DNA from: Earliella scabrosa
Lineage: Eukaryota > Basidiomycota > Agaricomycetes > Polyporales > Polyporaceae
Direction of reading: 5' to 3'
DNA length: 64,000 bases
NCBI GenBank assembly: GCA_022605405.1
Contig: JABYQQ010000001.1
Span: 4,402,001 to 4,466,000, forward strand
The notes under the pieces are model-generated. The model was not told the DNA's origin. It searched no databases and saw only the letters and a list, made by a program, of their open reading frames with translations. Positions 30,061 through 48,697 of this stretch are shown here, one piece after another; positions within the stretch are counted from its first letter, which is position 1; each line of letters begins with the position of its first letter. The position numbers and the translations under genes were made by a program.

Positions 30061-33000
30061 TCAGCCAGACTTGTGCTCCAGCTGGTCGAGGAAGGCGAGC
30101 CACGTCTTCTTGTCGATGACGCCCTCATCTAAGAAACGTGAGACGTCAGCAACCGCGTGTATGAAAAGCATCGTCAAGGCACGCACAGTGTCCGTCCGTG
30201 TCCGTCACGACGACGTATCTGGCCCCGAGCTTCGTGAAGAATTGCTGGACGAGCTCGAGAGGCGAGTTGTCTTGGACGGTCAAGGGTGCCTAGTCCGGAT
30301 CGCATCAATAAGCCAAAGTAAAAGCGTATTATACTTAGACGTACCTGGTCCATGTAGCAGCTGAAGTCATACGGATCAGCGCCGAAAATGTTGGAACCGG
30401 TCTCTGCCAACGAAGAGATAGAGGCAGTCAGAAGTCCGCCATGGCCATGCGGTGTCGTCGGGTGGAAAGTGATGGTTTCGTCGGGCTCGTCGGCGACGAT
30501 GCCTATAGCGACGCCGTCAGTCTACGCTTCTAACTAGATGGGTGTCACAGACTCACTCAGTGCATGCTCCAACTCGTTGGCGCCTATGTACCCAACCATG
30601 CGCAACCCCTCGCTGTCCTGCCTCAAGATCGGCAAGCCGCTGTCAGAGTTCCCAGAGTCGACGAGCAGCTGGAGTTTATCCCTGAGGCTCTTGACGGTGT
30701 TCTGATCGTCAACACGGATGACTTCGACGTCCCGATCAGTCTGGATGGTGAGTTTGTTCTTTAGCGAGCTACCTTAAGGACAAATGGTATAGAGGACTTA
30801 CAACGTCGTTGATCTGGAGGGCGCCCCAGATGTAGTCGTGCTTCGCGTCGAGATACGGGAGCTGCGAAAGCTGGATGACGAGATCATATATACCCTTGGG
30901 TTCCAGAGCATCCGCGATGGTCTTCGCGACGAGCACTGACAGCATCACCGGGACGGCGTAAGTCAGGGTATCAGTGAGCTCGAACATGATAACCGCGAGC
31001 GACACGGTGGTGCGCTACACATGAGAGAGGTCAGTCATGAGGAATGGTCACCAGAGACCCCGCATGAGTGCTCACCGTTACGCCAGACAAGGTAGCTGCT
31101 GCACCAACCATGGCGTACAGGCCAGGAATGACACAGTTGAGGTCCCCCTTGCAGGCCCTAAAGGCGACGCTGTCTGGGTACGAGTATTGCATCCACTGAA
31201 TGAGGATACCGACGATTCGCCCAGCACATGCGCCGACTGTCAGGCAGCCTAAGTGTCATTATATGCGCAGGAGATAAATTCGACATGGACGTACCTCCGA
31301 GTGTTGGAATGAAGATACCTGCCGGTACCTTGATACCAAAGGTCACGATGGTCAAGGCGCCTTTAACGAAGAGAGCAACGAAGATCGCTCTGATCACCGG
31401 CATCGCTTGAGTCGGTGGGTCGAGGACGCATAGACCAGAATGAGTGTTGGAACTCCCTTCGCGACACTCGGCGAAGAGATTGTAGACAAGTTCCGTGCCG
31501 CCCAAACGTGTGTACGGGTTGAGGAAGCTCAGCAGAGCTGTCACGACAGTGACCTATGGGTGCGATTGGTTCATGCAGAAAGGCCATGAAGCAACCAATT
31601 GTGGCATACCAGAACAACTTCCACCACGGGGTAATTCTTGAGCCACGTTCCATTCCGGACATAACGACTCCAGCGGAAGTTCAGCTTCGAAAAGTATGCA
31701 CCGTAGACACCCTGGGAGGTGGATGTCAGTCGCATCTTCAAACAACTTGAGGGAGACCTTACACCGAAGACACCCAAGAGCAGGAATGGGAATAGCTCAT
31801 ATGCGTGCCAGTCCTTATCATACGTGACTTGGAACAAAACAAGCTTGCCGCTTCCAAATGGATCTAAGAAGCGTAGAGTCACGGCAGCGACCATGGCGCA
31901 AAAGAAGCTAGCCAGTTAGGTGAGTAAAAGAGAGTAATGGTCATCATGGATGTAACAACACTGACCTCCTCCACATGACTTTGGCTGGGAAGAAATATGA
32001 GACTTCTTCCAAGCTGAACAGAACACCACCAATCGGAGCACCGAAAGCCACAGCTACACCGGCTGCGCACGCCGCGCTGAGTATCCCACGACGCTTTCCT
32101 ATACCGATAGGTAAGGACACCTGCAAGCTCCCACGTTTCAAGAACATACCTTCGTTGGTCTCGTACTTGGTGAAGAACCGACTAACGATGTTGCCCACGC
32201 AAGAGGCGATATGCACTAACGGACCCTCCTTACCTGCGGAGCAGCGTCAATGTTGTCGATAATTTGATCCACGGTTTGACGTACCAAGGGAAAGTCCGGA
32301 AGCAACTGACAATGCCAGGCCCAGAGATTTGGTGAACAGCGTCCGGCCACCAAGATAACCATGAATGACGAAACCTGAAGAGCTCCCATTGAGATTTGCC
32401 ACGCTTAGCAGATCTGCAAACACTCACCAGACAAGATGGTCTTGATCTCTGGGATGCCACTGCCGGCAGCCTACGAACCTCCTTGAGTATGCCTAGTAGG
32501 CTATATGCGCGGAAAACACCCACATAGTAGAGCACTTTGCGGGGCTGGGCACCACCTGCCGGAGGATCAGTCGCAGCTTTCCCATCATTTCCAGCGAAGG
32601 TGGATGAGAGCACGCCGGAGTCCTTCCTTGTGACGAAAGATGTCGAGGCGGTCAAGTTGATGGTGAGAACGGAGGAAGTGACAGCAAGCACGACCTGCGA
32701 TTCCTTCAGATGACACTCAGGGTAGAATATAATGCGATACATACTGCGATGATGATGTACACAACGTACTCGACACTTTCCACCTCCAGCCAATCCGACC
32801 TGTTCGCCACCGGGGTGAAGTACTCGCCCCATGTCTGCCAGGCCGGACAGGCCTCCTCTAGGGCCATGGACAGGAACGCCGGCGGGGAGGTCGAGAGGAC
32901 ATCTTCGTCGATGGCAGGGCAGCAGAACCGCTTTGCTTTCCAGATACCAGTGGTGCAGTGACCTTCCTTGATGTCGAAGAGCCATTGCTCGCTGCGTACG

Positions 33001-33659
33001 ATCATGAAGGCGGTGATTGCGGTGAAGAAGCCGACAATAGTGACGGTGATCCAGCCAATGCTGCGGTCGAGCTGCCTGAGGAAACGACCGCGCTTGGACT
33101 TGCGCTTGCGAAGAGCCCCCTGTCGTGCCGAGTCCTTGATGGCGTCATGGAGCCAGTCGATGGAGGTGAAGGACGAGTACCAGACACGGATGCCATTCGT
33201 CTTGATGCCTTCGGACTCGATCTGCTCGTTGGCGACGACGGGCCCGTCGTAGGCGGAGATGGGGCGCTGTGTGCTGAAGTAGCTCGCGCGGAGGGAGCGG
33301 GGCGAGTGGACGCTCGGCGTGGGTGGGTTCGTGTAGCGGCCCTTGGGGATCAAGAGACTGGGAAGCGCACCGAGCGCGTGACGGGCACGGAATGACGACT
33401 TCTGCTTGCCACTGCCCGTGCGCGCGGCCGCAGGGAGCGTTCCATACGATGCGGAGCGTAACTCGGGAGCTGGCCGCAGGGCCGACGTCTCGCCCGTCGC
33501 CGCCTCCGGTACCCCCGGCACCGCTGGAGAGGAACCAGCCTGTCCAATCTGAAGCAGACGTTGACGACGCCAATCCGTGGTCGACGGTCCGCTCAACGGC
33601 CCCGGACGTTCCTCGCCGCCGGCATTGGAGGCGTTGGACGGAACCCTCTTGAGAGGCAT
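30061..33659 (-). CDS. CLC-family chloride channel/transporter with CBS domains
   Basis: Membrane chloride transporter of the Gef1/CLC type, probably in Golgi or endosomes, where such proteins aid acidification and metal homeostasis. ATG at 33659 ([20 protein letters not shown]) starts a long cytosolic N-terminus; the frame upstream to 33731 begins with GTG and was rejected. The first membrane helix is [20 protein letters not shown]. Signature motifs are [15 protein letters not shown] (chloride filter), [11 protein letters not shown] with the gating glutamate, and [16 protein letters not shown]. Later helices include [20 protein letters not shown]. The C-terminus has CBS-domain sequence ([40 protein letters not shown]) and ends [13 protein letters not shown]. 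Many short introns, about 850-900 residues. Confidence 0.93.
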
Positions 33660-34236
33660 GATGAGGTGTTGGAGTAGGAAGTGAGACTGCGCCCTCCGGA
33701 ATCTCGTTAACAGATTACGTCCACCGTCCACGAGGCTGCGAACTCGGTCCTAGCACGGGCTGGCTAGAAGCACACACGACGGTCGGGCGACGGGTGGCAA
33801 TGGCATATGCATGCTAAGTGTGACTGTGGTTCGCACCGGCGACCGAAACCTTCACTCACCAATATTGTTACACTACACCAACCGCCACCAATGCCGTCAG
33901 ACCTCCTGTTCAGCGTTCAGTCCCAAGCGATGGACGCGGTATTGAAGCAGCCGATGCAAATCCGACGTTGAGGGCGGACTCGAGGCGGTCGTCGCGAGCT
34001 TGTGCGGTGATGTCCCCACAAAGAGACCCCACAGGCCAAGTACCCTACCCGTGGACTTCGGAACCACCTCCCGATAGACGCCAAGGCTGAGCGTCTGCTG
34101 GGTTCTAACATTGGGTCGGAGTCTCCGCAAGAAGCCGCGTTCGGGCCACCAGCCAAGAGCCTGGTGCAGCGCGTTCGCCTCGCGTCCAAAGACTCTCGGT
34201 TAACTTCTACGACTTGCACAACTCTCCGACGCAAAA
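33660..34236. other. Divergent intergenic region, CLC and SmD3
   Basis: Holds the promoters of the CLC gene (-) and SmD3 (+). Open frames here on the minus strand have no recognisable content. Confidence 0.5.
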
Positions 34237-44983: not shown

Positions 44984-45748
44984 ATGTCGCACGACGGCGA
45001 AGCGCACCAGACCAACGGCGAGCAGCAGGCGGCGGCGGCGGCGGCGGGTGCGCCCAACGGCCACCAGCCCGACAAGCACCCGATCCTCATCATCGTCATG
45101 GTGCGTTCGCCCTGCAGCATCTCACCCCATCTATCGTGTGTCGCGCTGACTCGATCCCCACACCATCTGCAGGGCGTGGCGGGCACGGGCAAGACGACGA
45201 TCGCGCGCGCCCTCGAGGCGCGACTGGGCATGGCCTACATCGAGGGCGACGCGCTCCACCCCGCCGCGAACATCGCCAAGATGTCGTCCGGCACGCCGCT
45301 CACCGACGCCGACCGCGAGCCGTGGCTCGAGCTCATCCGCACCACCGCCGAGCACATGGCCGCCGAGGACCAGGCGGCCGCCCCCCCTGGCCGCCGCCCG
45401 GGCGTCATCGCGACGTGCTCTGCGCTCCGCGCGTATTACCGCGACATCCTTCGGGGGACCCGCGCCCCGCCCGGCCTGCAGCTCCCTGAGCACCTCGAGC
45501 CCCCGGCACCCCACCGCCTCCCGACGTACTTTGTGTACATCAAGGGCGACAAGAAGCTGCTGATGGACCGGATATCGAAGCGGGAGGGACACTTCATGAA
45601 GCCCCAGATGCTGGAGAGCCAGCTGCAGACGCTCGAGAGTCCGGAGGGGGAGGATGGCGTGGTTGTGGTCCCGTTGGACGCAACGACGGAGGAGCAGGTA
45701 GACATCGTCATTCGTGGACTGAACGAGCTACTGCCAGAACCACTATAG
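44984..45748 (+). CDS. Gluconokinase
   Basis: Phosphorylates D-gluconate with ATP to 6-phosphogluconate, feeding the pentose phosphate pathway. ATG at 44984 gives MSHDGEAHQTNGEQQ followed by an alanine run and ILIIVM. An intron 45101-45172 joins it to the Walker A loop GVAGTGKTTIARALEARLG. Family motifs follow: YIEGDALHPAANIAKMSSGT, PLTDADREPWLELI and CSALRAYYRDILRG. Then come YFVYIKGDKKLLMDRISKRE and GHFMKPQMLESQLQTLESPE, the hallmark of gluconate kinases. The end is IRGLNELLPEPL. The intron is 72 nt, a multiple of three without a stop, so the frame is open even unspliced. Single intron; about 230 residues after splicing. Confidence 0.94.
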   Translation: MSHDGEAHQTNGEQQAAAAAAGAPNGHQPDKHPILIIVMVRSPCSISPHLSCVALTRSPHHLQGVAGTGKTTIARALEARLGMAYIEGDALHPAANIAKMSSGTPLTDADREPWLELIRTTAEHMAAEDQAAAPPGRRPGVIATCSALRAYYRDILRGTRAPPGLQLPEHLEPPAPHRLPTYFVYIKGDKKLLMDRISKREGHFMKPQMLESQLQTLESPEGEDGVVVVPLDATTEEQVDIVIRGLNELLPEPL

Positions 45749-46493: not shown

Positions 46494-47677
46494 TCAGAAC
46501 ACGCTCACGGACGACATGGAACCGATAGGCGCAATGGCCAGGTCCCAGCCGCTCAGCTCGAGATCAAGAGCCGAGGGGAAGTCGTCCTGAGACGCACCTA
46601 CGCCAGTGTCCAGCGGTGCTGCGTCGGGCTGGGCCACGGGGAGCATGGCCAGCAGTCTCTGCATCTCAACCTCACTCTCCCAGTCGATCTCCGGTAGTGT
46701 GGGGGTCGGGGTCACCGACGCCGCGGGGGGCGGCGCCAGCTTGATCTCGGATACCGACTGGGATCGTGACCGGGTGGGCGCAGCGCCAGAAGGCAGAGGA
46801 GCCTGCGGCGACACGGGGGAAGGCGCGAGGATTTCGCGGAAGAGGTCGTCCATGATGACTTCGTCCACCGCTGATTGCGCGCTCTCGCCAATGTGGATGG
46901 TCGGCGGATATGATGAGGGAGGGATGTTGAGCTCAAGCTGGAGATGATTCGGCGAACATTCGGATCCACCCGCTGCAGGGGCACCGATGATAAACGAGGG
47001 GCATCGGTGGTCGCCACCCGTGCTAGGTGGCGAGTGGAATCGAAGTCGTCGGGATCGAAGAGAGTGCTTGAGCCGGAAGACGTGTGTGAAGGTGCGGGAG
47101 AGATGGGAAATACGGGGGAGGGGGGCACGAATACGGGGAAAGTAGTCGTGGGAGGGAATTGACCTGACGTAGCTGGTGCGGAGGGGTCAGAAGAGGATGA
47201 GGAGGAGGATGTTGTCGAAGAGGGTACGGAGGGAACATTGAGCGGGAGACCGGAGGCTGCTAGCGCCTTCATCACGGCCTCCCAGCCCGTTTCCAGTGTT
47301 TTGATCCTCTGTCGAAGCTCCTCGTTCTCCTTCTCCCTGGCCCTGTCCTTCTCGCGCTCTTCGTCTTTCTGTCCGGTGGATGATTGTGATAGTGCGGCAA
47401 GACCCATGCCGGCGCGGAGCTGCCTGTTCTCCTCCTCAAGCTCTTGGACGCGACGCTCGAGGTACGCGAACTGCGCCTTGCGGCGGTCGCGGGAGTTCTG
47501 AGCAGCGATGCGATTGCGGTGTGCGCGAGCCTCCTTACGCTCCTCGGGGGTGACTTCGGAGCGAGCTCGCTTGCGTGAGGGACCTGCCTGGTTGTCGGAG
47601 GTGGGGGAATCAGGCGACTGGGCGTCGGTGGGTGGGGGTGAAGGGATGGAGAGGTCCATGTCGGCAGGGCGTTTCAT
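46494..47677 (-). CDS. HAC1/XBP1-like bZIP transcription factor, probable unfolded-protein-response regulator
   Basis: ATG at 47677 gives MKRPADMDLSIPSPPPTDAQ. The basic region is EERKEARAHRNRIAAQNSRD then RRKAQFAYLERRVQELEEEN, continuing as a leucine zipper. NRIAAQNSRDRRKAQ is closest in pattern to XBP1 and fungal HAC1 among bZIP factors. This frame continues past the zipper through FDPDDFDSTRHLARVATTDA. If read on without removal of sequence it turns into an arginine-rich tail and stops at 46712 (321 residues). A second frame, offset by two, encodes an acidic tail (VDEVIMDDLFREILAPSPVS; EIDWESEVEMQRLLAMLP; LELSGWDLAIAPIG) ending at 46494, as expected of an activation domain. Removing 46976-47022 (47 nt) gives one frame of 379 codons including the stop. 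Divergent from RPR2. That it is HAC1 is inferred. Confidence 0.83.
46969..47032 (-). promoter_or_regulatory. Candidate Ire1-dependent non-spliceosomal intron and hairpins
   Basis: Read as mRNA (minus strand) there are three consecutive hairpins. First, a 7-bp stem 47026-47032 / 47012-47018 closes a 7-nt loop UAGCACG. Second, an 8-bp stem 47002-47009 / 46982-46989 has a 12-nt loop. Third, a GC stem 46979-46981 / 46969-46971, extended by two G-U pairs, closes a 7-nt loop CUGCAGC at 46972-46978. The third loop matches the Ire1 consensus CNG|CNGN exactly. The first has the cleavable G|C at positions 3/4 but deviates at positions 1 and 6. Cutting both loops after position 3 excises 47 nt (46976-47022) and fixes the frame. 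A spliceosomal GT-AG alternative (donor gtgccc, acceptor ctccag, also 47 nt) cannot be excluded. Confidence 0.62.
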
Positions 47678-47952: not shown

Positions 47953-48697
47953 ATGGGCAAAAAAGACAAGAACCAGGAACCAGTGGCTAGCCTCAACGCT
48001 GTCGCGAACAGGGACATCGTCCAGCGCATCAACTTCCTCTATCAGGCCAGCACCTATCTGCACTCCATTTCCCAGTCGACCCCGGTCGGCGCTGTTCAGC
48101 CGCAGCGGAAAGGCAAAGGAAAGAAGAAAAATGCGATAAGGCATCCCAAGGACGCTGCGGAGCTGTCCAGGTGCTACGTCGGCTCCATGCGCATCGTCGG
48201 ACAGAAGACCATGGTCAGAATGTGAGTCAATGTATCGCAGTTCGCATGAGCAGACGCTCACCAATTATATCCTGCAGGGATCCTTCGATCAAACGCACCT
48301 TGTGCAAACAATGCGACACTGTCCTAATACCTGGCTCAACCGCCTCCGTTCGAGTTAAAGGTGCGTTCGCTCATGCGACGGTATGAGTCAGTGATAATAC
48401 TTGCGCCCAACAGCGCTACCCTCTCACGGCCACTGCGTCACATACACATGTCTAGCCTGTCAAACGACCAAACGTATACCCGCTCCTCCGCTGTTGGACC
48501 AAGAAGCTTCGTTCAATACAGCTGCGCCCACCGCAGGCCCGGATACGTCCGCCATGGATGTCGACTCGATTATTCCGCAGTCCACCACAGAGCATAGTAG
48601 CCGCAAGCCCAATAGAGCCCCCACACCACGCCTCCCGCCCCTTTTCGACCGGAAAGGTCATGTCGTTTTCCGAGGAAACGAAGTTATTACGTCGTGA
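47953..48697 (+). CDS. RPR2: RNase P/MRP subunit RPR2/RPP21-like
   Basis: Protein subunit of nuclear ribonuclease P, which matures the 5' end of tRNA. ATG at 47953 gives MGKKDKNQEPVASLNAVANR, then DIVQRINFLYQASTYLHSIS and AAELSRCYVGSMRIVGQKTM. Introns follow VRM and VRVK. The zinc ribbon is formed by IKRTLCKQCDTVLIPG and CVTYTCLACQTTKRIPAP, giving four cysteines in two CxxC pairs. The C-terminal 60 residues are low complexity and basic (SRKPNRAPTPRLPP), ending FRGNEVITS. The fold signature (helix pair plus C4 zinc ribbon) fits RPR2/RPP21/SNM1; which of the three cannot be decided by eye. Confidence 0.85.

Follow-up and report, generated by a model that had tools for sequence, protein, structure and literature searches.

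In the window analysed here, a 64,000-nt stretch of an Earliella scabrosa contig, the minus strand carries what we judge, with a probability of about 0.75, to be an XBP1/HAC1-type UPR bZIP gene with a 47-nt unconventional intron (47022-46976) cut by Ire1. Leaving its exact boundaries aside, an Ire1-type intron is very probably present in this gene. The original prediction of such an intron is supported by an XBP1-like bZIP domain, a frame switch, a pair of hairpins at that switch, genes for both Ire1 and a ligase, and the lack of a convincing GT-AG alternative. Introns of this kind are already known, basidiomycetes included. The coordinates of the gene and of its proposed splicing elements are collected in Table 1.

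Table 1. Features of the bZIP gene and of its proposed splice-site region, in positions of the window.
Feature	Positions	Strand	Remarks
XBP1/HAC1-like bZIP gene, coding span	46494..47677	-	ATG 47677-47675; spliced-frame stop 46496-46494
Exon 1	47023..47677	-	218 codons plus one base; bZIP at residues ~44-89
Exon 2	46494..46975	-	acidic tail of the spliced product and stop
Unspliced tail and its stop	46712..47022	-	103 aa, counted from the junction-split codon
Proposed Ire1-type intron	46976..47022	-	47 nt; 5'-CACGGG...CCCCUG-3'
5' splice-site hairpin (predicted)	47011..47033	-	8 bp; loop UAG|CACG at 47025-47019; off consensus at positions 1 and 6
Middle hairpin, inside the intron (predicted)	46982..47009	-	8 bp; 12-nt loop
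3' splice-site hairpin (predicted)	46968..46982	-	4 bp; loop CUG|CAGC at 46978-46972; full consensus; minor conformer
Clamp, 5' arm (UUCGAUUCCAC)	47034..47044	-	predicted exon 1-exon 2 pairing; fold z about -2.2; putative role
Clamp, 3' arm (GUGGAUCCGAA)	46959..46969	-	two bases common to the 3' stem

The bZIP domain matches the Pfam families bZIP_2 (E 8.7e-12) and bZIP_1 (E 1.5e-10), and aligns with human XBP1 at 41% identity over 92 aa (E 4e-15). When the human XBP1 bZIP was compared with the 51.7-Mb genome at E <= 10, this gene was the sole match (47%, 6.7e-5), in a search whose first look let through one candidate only. The gene is single copy in the genome, where two more bZIP_2 and three more bZIP_1 matches are found elsewhere. 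A PDB search with the full bZIP frame gave no match at E <= 0.001. With the bZIP alone, matches were weak (32 sequences at E <= 1, the best at 0.0028) and mostly of the Jun, Fos, CREB and C/EBP types, as is possible for any bZIP. Relatives of the gene were sought in viral and prokaryote contigs and not found there. Judging by these similarities, we take it as the genome's putative XBP1/HAC1 counterpart.

Two long minus-strand frames make up the coding region. The bZIP frame runs from the ATG at 47677 to a stop at 46714-46712 (321 aa), while a second frame, here called the C frame, is open from 47186 (after a stop at 47189) to the stop at 46496-46494. The two share about 470 nt, so that an event of some kind is needed to link them. 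Excision of 47022-46976, a 47-nt segment without GU-AG ends, yields 378 aa and a stop (379 codons). The ends of the two products are of opposite character: the unspliced tail of 103 aa is Arg-rich, with 24 K/R and 3 D/E, and the spliced tail of 160 aa is acidic, with 21 D/E and 5 K/R. A switch to an alternative acidic C-terminus, as in HAC1/XBP1 genes, is present. These coordinates reproduce what had been claimed from first inspection, namely a bZIP frame and an acidic C-terminal frame offset by two, cuts after base 3 of both loops that remove 47 nt (2 mod 3) and restore 379 codons, and an unspliced form of 321 residues with an arginine-rich end.

Codon usage favours the bZIP frame just 5' of the junction (0.97 at 47077-47018) and the C frame soon 3' of it (0.999 at 46957-46898). 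On the other hand, three segments spanning 47257-47078 lean to the C frame, against the proposed junction, and the segment 46777-46718 leans to the third frame. Fitting by codon usage did not fix the junction position: the best codon-likelihood join takes exon 1 to 47234 and exon 2 from 47105, and the proposed junction lies 8.3 below it. Ser/Pro-rich stretches probably mislead this kind of fitting. The same models bear on the reading that there is no intron and that the frame offset is an error, either of an assembly that lacks one base or of a decaying gene. C runs of five or six bases do occur within the overlap or next to it (47125, 47118, 46819, 46730 and 46705), and models with only an indel, which can sit at many places in the overlap, reach -8.5 at best versus -8.3 for the proposed junction. 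However, an error of this kind leaves the hairpin pair at the switch unexplained, and the bZIP frame still encodes the acidic FDPDDFD, which lies beyond the 47125 run and ahead of the junction. We regard it as very improbable.

Ordinary GT-AG splicing was weighed against 21 reference introns of the genome. P450 genes supplied 17 of them, Ire1 two, and the ligase and the kinase gene at 44984 one each. The P450 introns were located by the P450 exon matches; of 20 stretches drawn for the set, L068 (a 146-nt gap) was omitted. If a stretch allowed more than one model, the model with the best donor was chosen, and the L061 model is doubtful. GTRNGT is matched at 6/6 positions by 15 of the 21 reference donors and at 5/6 by the other six, while none of 220 frame-restoring GT/GC-AG candidates in the bZIP gene has a 6/6 donor. 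Among 16 frame-restoring GT-AG candidates (single introns, 40-119 nt), the best score is 11.6, followed by 11.5. In leave-one-out scoring the reference introns reach 12.2-20.4, so that the weakest stands 0.6 bits above the best candidate. The specificity of the score is low, with 11 of 194 any-frame GT-AG candidates in the gene exceeding the weakest reference. In an earlier scoring that used exon bases and 19 introns, the best of 137 candidates (36-199 nt) reached 11.2 (167 nt) and the references had a minimum of 10.7 and a median of 21.2, such that candidate scores touch the lower tail.

Ordinary splicing of the frame switch is unlikely. We put it no more strongly than that because the candidate scores lie near or within the lower reference range. 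In particular, the conventional 47-nt option gtgccc...ctccag, which the original prediction had named as an example of a constitutive intron that would overturn it, scores 7.3, below all 21 references, of which the weakest scores 12.2. A better case can be made for a spliceosomal intron with weak sites, possibly regulated, such as 46957-46884 (74 nt, GTTCGC...GGCGAG) or 46969-46884 (86 nt). Their scores of 11.6 and 11.5 fall just under 12.2, and the best candidate of the earlier scoring (11.2) passes the reference minimum of that scoring (10.7). Yet the 6/6 donors are missing from all 220 candidates, the reference median is far higher (21.2), and the paired hairpins would be left to chance, which makes for a slim prospect. 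As a separate observation, an intron-like stretch of 55 nt (47227-47173, minus strand) lies in the Ser-rich part of exon 1, with a good CTGAC branch site (score 14.7) and a CACCAG acceptor. Its donor, GTACCC, is weak and its length is 1 mod 3, so a conventional intron there cannot alone solve the frame.

The RNA around the switch is predicted to fold into three consecutive hairpins. The 5' hairpin (stem 47033-47026/47018-47011, UCGCCACC-UAGCACG-GGUGGCGA) has a predicted energy of -13.6 kcal/mol and stem pair probabilities of 0.69-0.97, and its loop bases U1 and G7 are predicted to pair, which shrinks the loop to 5 nt. The middle stem (47009-47002/46989-46982) has seven listed pairs at a probability of 0.95-0.995. 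The 3' hairpin (stem 46982-46979/46971-46968, GCCC-CUGCAGC-GGGU) is predicted at -3.7 kcal/mol. Its first three closing pairs have a probability of 0.03 each in 76 nt and of 0.18, 0.18 and 0.09 in 131 and 211 nt; a fold made to contain it lies 2.6-3.5 kcal/mol above the best one. In the model it is the weak part, a minor conformer. Base 46982 is the outermost base of both the middle stem and the 3' stem; as they share bases, the 3' stem competes with the middle stem and the inner clamp pairs. The claim of three hairpins with 7-nt loops in the outer two therefore stands as a prediction of folding, tempered by the low probability of the 3' hairpin (0.03-0.18) and by the U1-G7 pair in the 5' loop.

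Beyond the hairpins, exon bases 47044-47034 are predicted to pair with 46969-46959, forming a clamp that encloses the three-hairpin junction. The whole fold is moderately better than those of shuffled sequences (z -2.2), with 6 of 200 shuffles equally good over 141 nt and 5 of 200 over 76 nt. An Rfam scan returned nothing beyond chance, its one match being at E 4.4. Stable predicted hairpins could also serve a programmed -1 ribosomal frameshift, which would produce the identical frame change. The bZIP frame has one in-frame X XXY YYZ heptamer between 47186 and 46976, TTTCCCC at 47141 (minus strand), but this lies more than 100 nt before the first hairpin, beyond the usual spacing, and the gene is XBP1-like in a genome that has Ire1. 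A frameshift is hardly credible here.

How rare such a hairpin pair is depends on what is counted. The sequence motif is frequent locally, with CNGCNG occurring at 9 places in 47300-46500, and by itself it means little. Hairpins with a 7-nt loop, G at loop position 3 and a folding energy E <= -3 are found only at the two proposed sites in 47186-46600, the next one being at -2.5. For the chance count, pairs with G3 in both 7-nt loops, a spacing of 15-150 nt and a length of 2 mod 3 were sought in 423,412 background bases, drawn from both strands of the window and of other genome loci, some of them overlapping. All thresholds were chosen after the target energies were known. Under the strict definition (E <= -3 and one full CNG(C/A)NGN loop), the background held one pair besides the target, a rate of 0.0011 per 473 nt, and such a pair turned up in 2 of 3000 dinucleotide shuffles of the region. 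The loosest definition (G3 only, E <= -2) gave 97 pairs, a rate of 0.108 per 473 nt, with hits in 56 of 3000 shuffles. The target pair itself drops out at E <= -5, and an earlier version of the shuffle test gave 1 of 2000 shuffles. Since the odds vary with the definition used, chance ranges from 1 in 10 to 1 in 1000, which we read as about 1 in 100.

The two proposed splice sites differ in how well they fit the consensus. The 3' loop CUGCAGC (46978-46972) meets CNG|(C/A)NGN in full, as had been pointed out. In the 5' loop UAGCACG, G3 and C4 fit, and U at position 1 and C at position 6 break CNG|CNGN, again in line with the earlier description. Because this loop fails the consensus, the intron is filed as a HAC1/XBP1-like variant and not as a plain member of the class. 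The mismatch also gives weight to an Ire1-type intron with other boundaries, in which CUG|CAGC (cut after 46976) would be the 5' site and a downstream consensus the 3' site. One open frame would result with CCG|CCGA (71 nt and 370 aa, cut after 46905) and equally with CCG|CAGG (170 nt and 337 aa, cut after 46806), and each of the loops concerned is a full CNG|CNGN match, unlike UAGCACG. Against this, a 7-nt-loop stem is found at neither downstream site, and the strong 8-bp hairpin of UAGCACG would be left without a role; we give these boundaries a small probability, if a larger one than ordinary splicing. The 71-nt alternative with CCGCCGA (46907) had been raised before, along with the remark that this loop lacks a clear stem. 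The remark was correct and the frame is open, at 370 aa, but only if CUG|CAGC serves as the 5' site.

The proposed 47-nt excision calls for an Ire1 and a ligase, and the genome encodes both the kinase-RNase and a splicing ligase. The Ire1 gene (contig C18, about 31133-34000) aligns with the yeast (2rio, 3fbv) and human proteins over both kinase and RNase domains, including the block RALRNKKHH, and its RNase domain is split over two exons by a 63-nt GT-AG intron. On contig C21, the ligase (RNA_lig_T4_1) and kinase domains of a tRNA ligase are close neighbours; the kinase-domain match holds one in-frame stop, which is probably an intron. The ligase and the intron signals are in keeping with a fungal genome.

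The stringency of Ire1 is reported to be decided by yeast positions 988, 992 and 1059: a strict enzyme has E/D, K/R and Y and needs CNG|(C/A)NGN, while the relaxed pattern is any residue, D/E and K/R (PMC8104961). The E. scabrosa Ire1 has T, D and K at these positions, which is the relaxed pattern, and human IRE1 has Q, D and K. Residues were numbered along the yeast chain from K992. With this numbering, N1001, M1010, T1032, F1033, E1038, R1039, H1044, S1045, M1049, Y1059 and H1061 all land on residues named in PMC8104961. Going by its residues, the relaxed pattern permits the odd 5' loop without predicting one, since the vast majority of species are described as carrying this pattern (PMC8104961). 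For a strict Ire1, UAGCACG would be an unlikely substrate.

How much a relaxed interface tolerates varies among the reported cases. Wild-type S. cerevisiae Ire1 requires CNG|(C/A)NGN, and the S. pombe-like interface pattern has been linked to a relaxed G|C requirement (PMC8104961). A relaxed yeast double mutant needed only G|C in one substrate series, though it continued to require CNG|NNGN in loops derived from HAC1 (PMC8104961). S. pombe Ire1, which has the relaxed pattern, left an AG|C loop in a hybrid mRNA uncut, and human IRE1, relaxed too, is described with CUG|CAG (PMC6037481). Moreover, the HAC1 mRNA of C. glabrata, without the consensus, is reported to remain unspliced (PMC6116095).

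In the mechanism that we favour, Ire1 would cut the 5' loop UAG|CACG and the 3' loop CUG|CAGC under ER stress, and a Trl1-type ligase would then join the exons as 47023^46975. The frame would move by two, exchanging the Arg-rich 103-aa tail for the acidic 160-aa tail, which presumably activates transcription, and the clamp may hold the exons together. The more specific version, in which one consensus 3' loop is combined with a relaxed 5' loop (G|C only, on a very strong stem), matched to a relaxed-interface Ire1 and with clamp-held exons, is tentative, at somewhat less than even odds. If true, this would be a splice-site pair whose halves are read at different stringency.

Metazoan XBP1 is a close parallel: the bZIP domains are 41-47% identical, a frame change of two exchanges the tail, as proposed here, and the 3' loop of XBP1 is CUGCAGC, as here. 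The XBP1 intron has 26 nt and the consensus in both loops; the proposed E. scabrosa intron has 47 nt, encloses an additional hairpin and departs from the consensus in its 5' loop. The intron of Ustilago maydis cib1 is 65 nt long. In basidiomycetes, UPR switches have been shown experimentally for Cryptococcus HXL1 and Ustilago cib1, the latter also a bZIP activated by unconventional Ire1 splicing (PMC10688622). HXL1 of Cryptococcus neoformans is likewise a basidiomycete bZIP mRNA from which Ire1 removes an intron of 56 nt, 2 mod 3, with long frames in both forms and predicted border hairpins (PMC3154848). It differs in having CAG at both borders, where the proposed 5' border here is CAC, and an additional 55-nt conventional intron upstream of the bZIP (PMC3154848). 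S. cerevisiae HAC1 has the 7-nt loops, ligase-joined exons and AG|C at the 5' site (PMC6037481) that are predicted here, but its intron is 252 nt long and takes part in 5'UTR attenuation (PMC6116095). No such pairing was found here: predicted pairing of the intron with the 5'UTR was no better than in shuffles, 123 of 200 of which were equally good.

Hxl1 sequence homologues have been named in Coprinopsis and Laccaria (PMC3154848). In the polypore Pycnoporus cinnabarinus, analysis of the genome is reported to have recovered Ire1 and Trl1 but no clear Hac1 ortholog (PMC4101180). Among the titles and abstract openings covered, none describes an Agaricomycete HAC1 intron; the survey of Hooks and Griffiths-Jones (2011) lies outside that coverage. 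The present gene is of interest for the unevenness of its splice-site pair and as a candidate UPR switch in a group for which one genome paper had not found it (PMC4101180). With a concrete gene and intron as a template, the switch could be sought in other mushroom-forming and wood-rot fungi, heavy enzyme secretors, and the odd 5' loop would show how much latitude natural Ire1 substrates have.

Some side observations concern the neighbouring genes and the genome at large. The genome holds a large P450 set, with at least 114 P450 exon matches (92 of 458 candidates scored). The divergent neighbour of the bZIP gene, an ORF at 47953-48225 (plus strand), has a weak match to Rpr2, an RNase P subunit domain (E 0.00085), whose 20 bits are below the Pfam cut-off of 29.3. 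On the other side, 44984-45748 (plus strand) is a P-loop kinase-like gene (AAA_33, E 9.7e-7), which looks like a gluconokinase, with a GTGCGT...CTGAC...GCAG intron inside the listed ORF.
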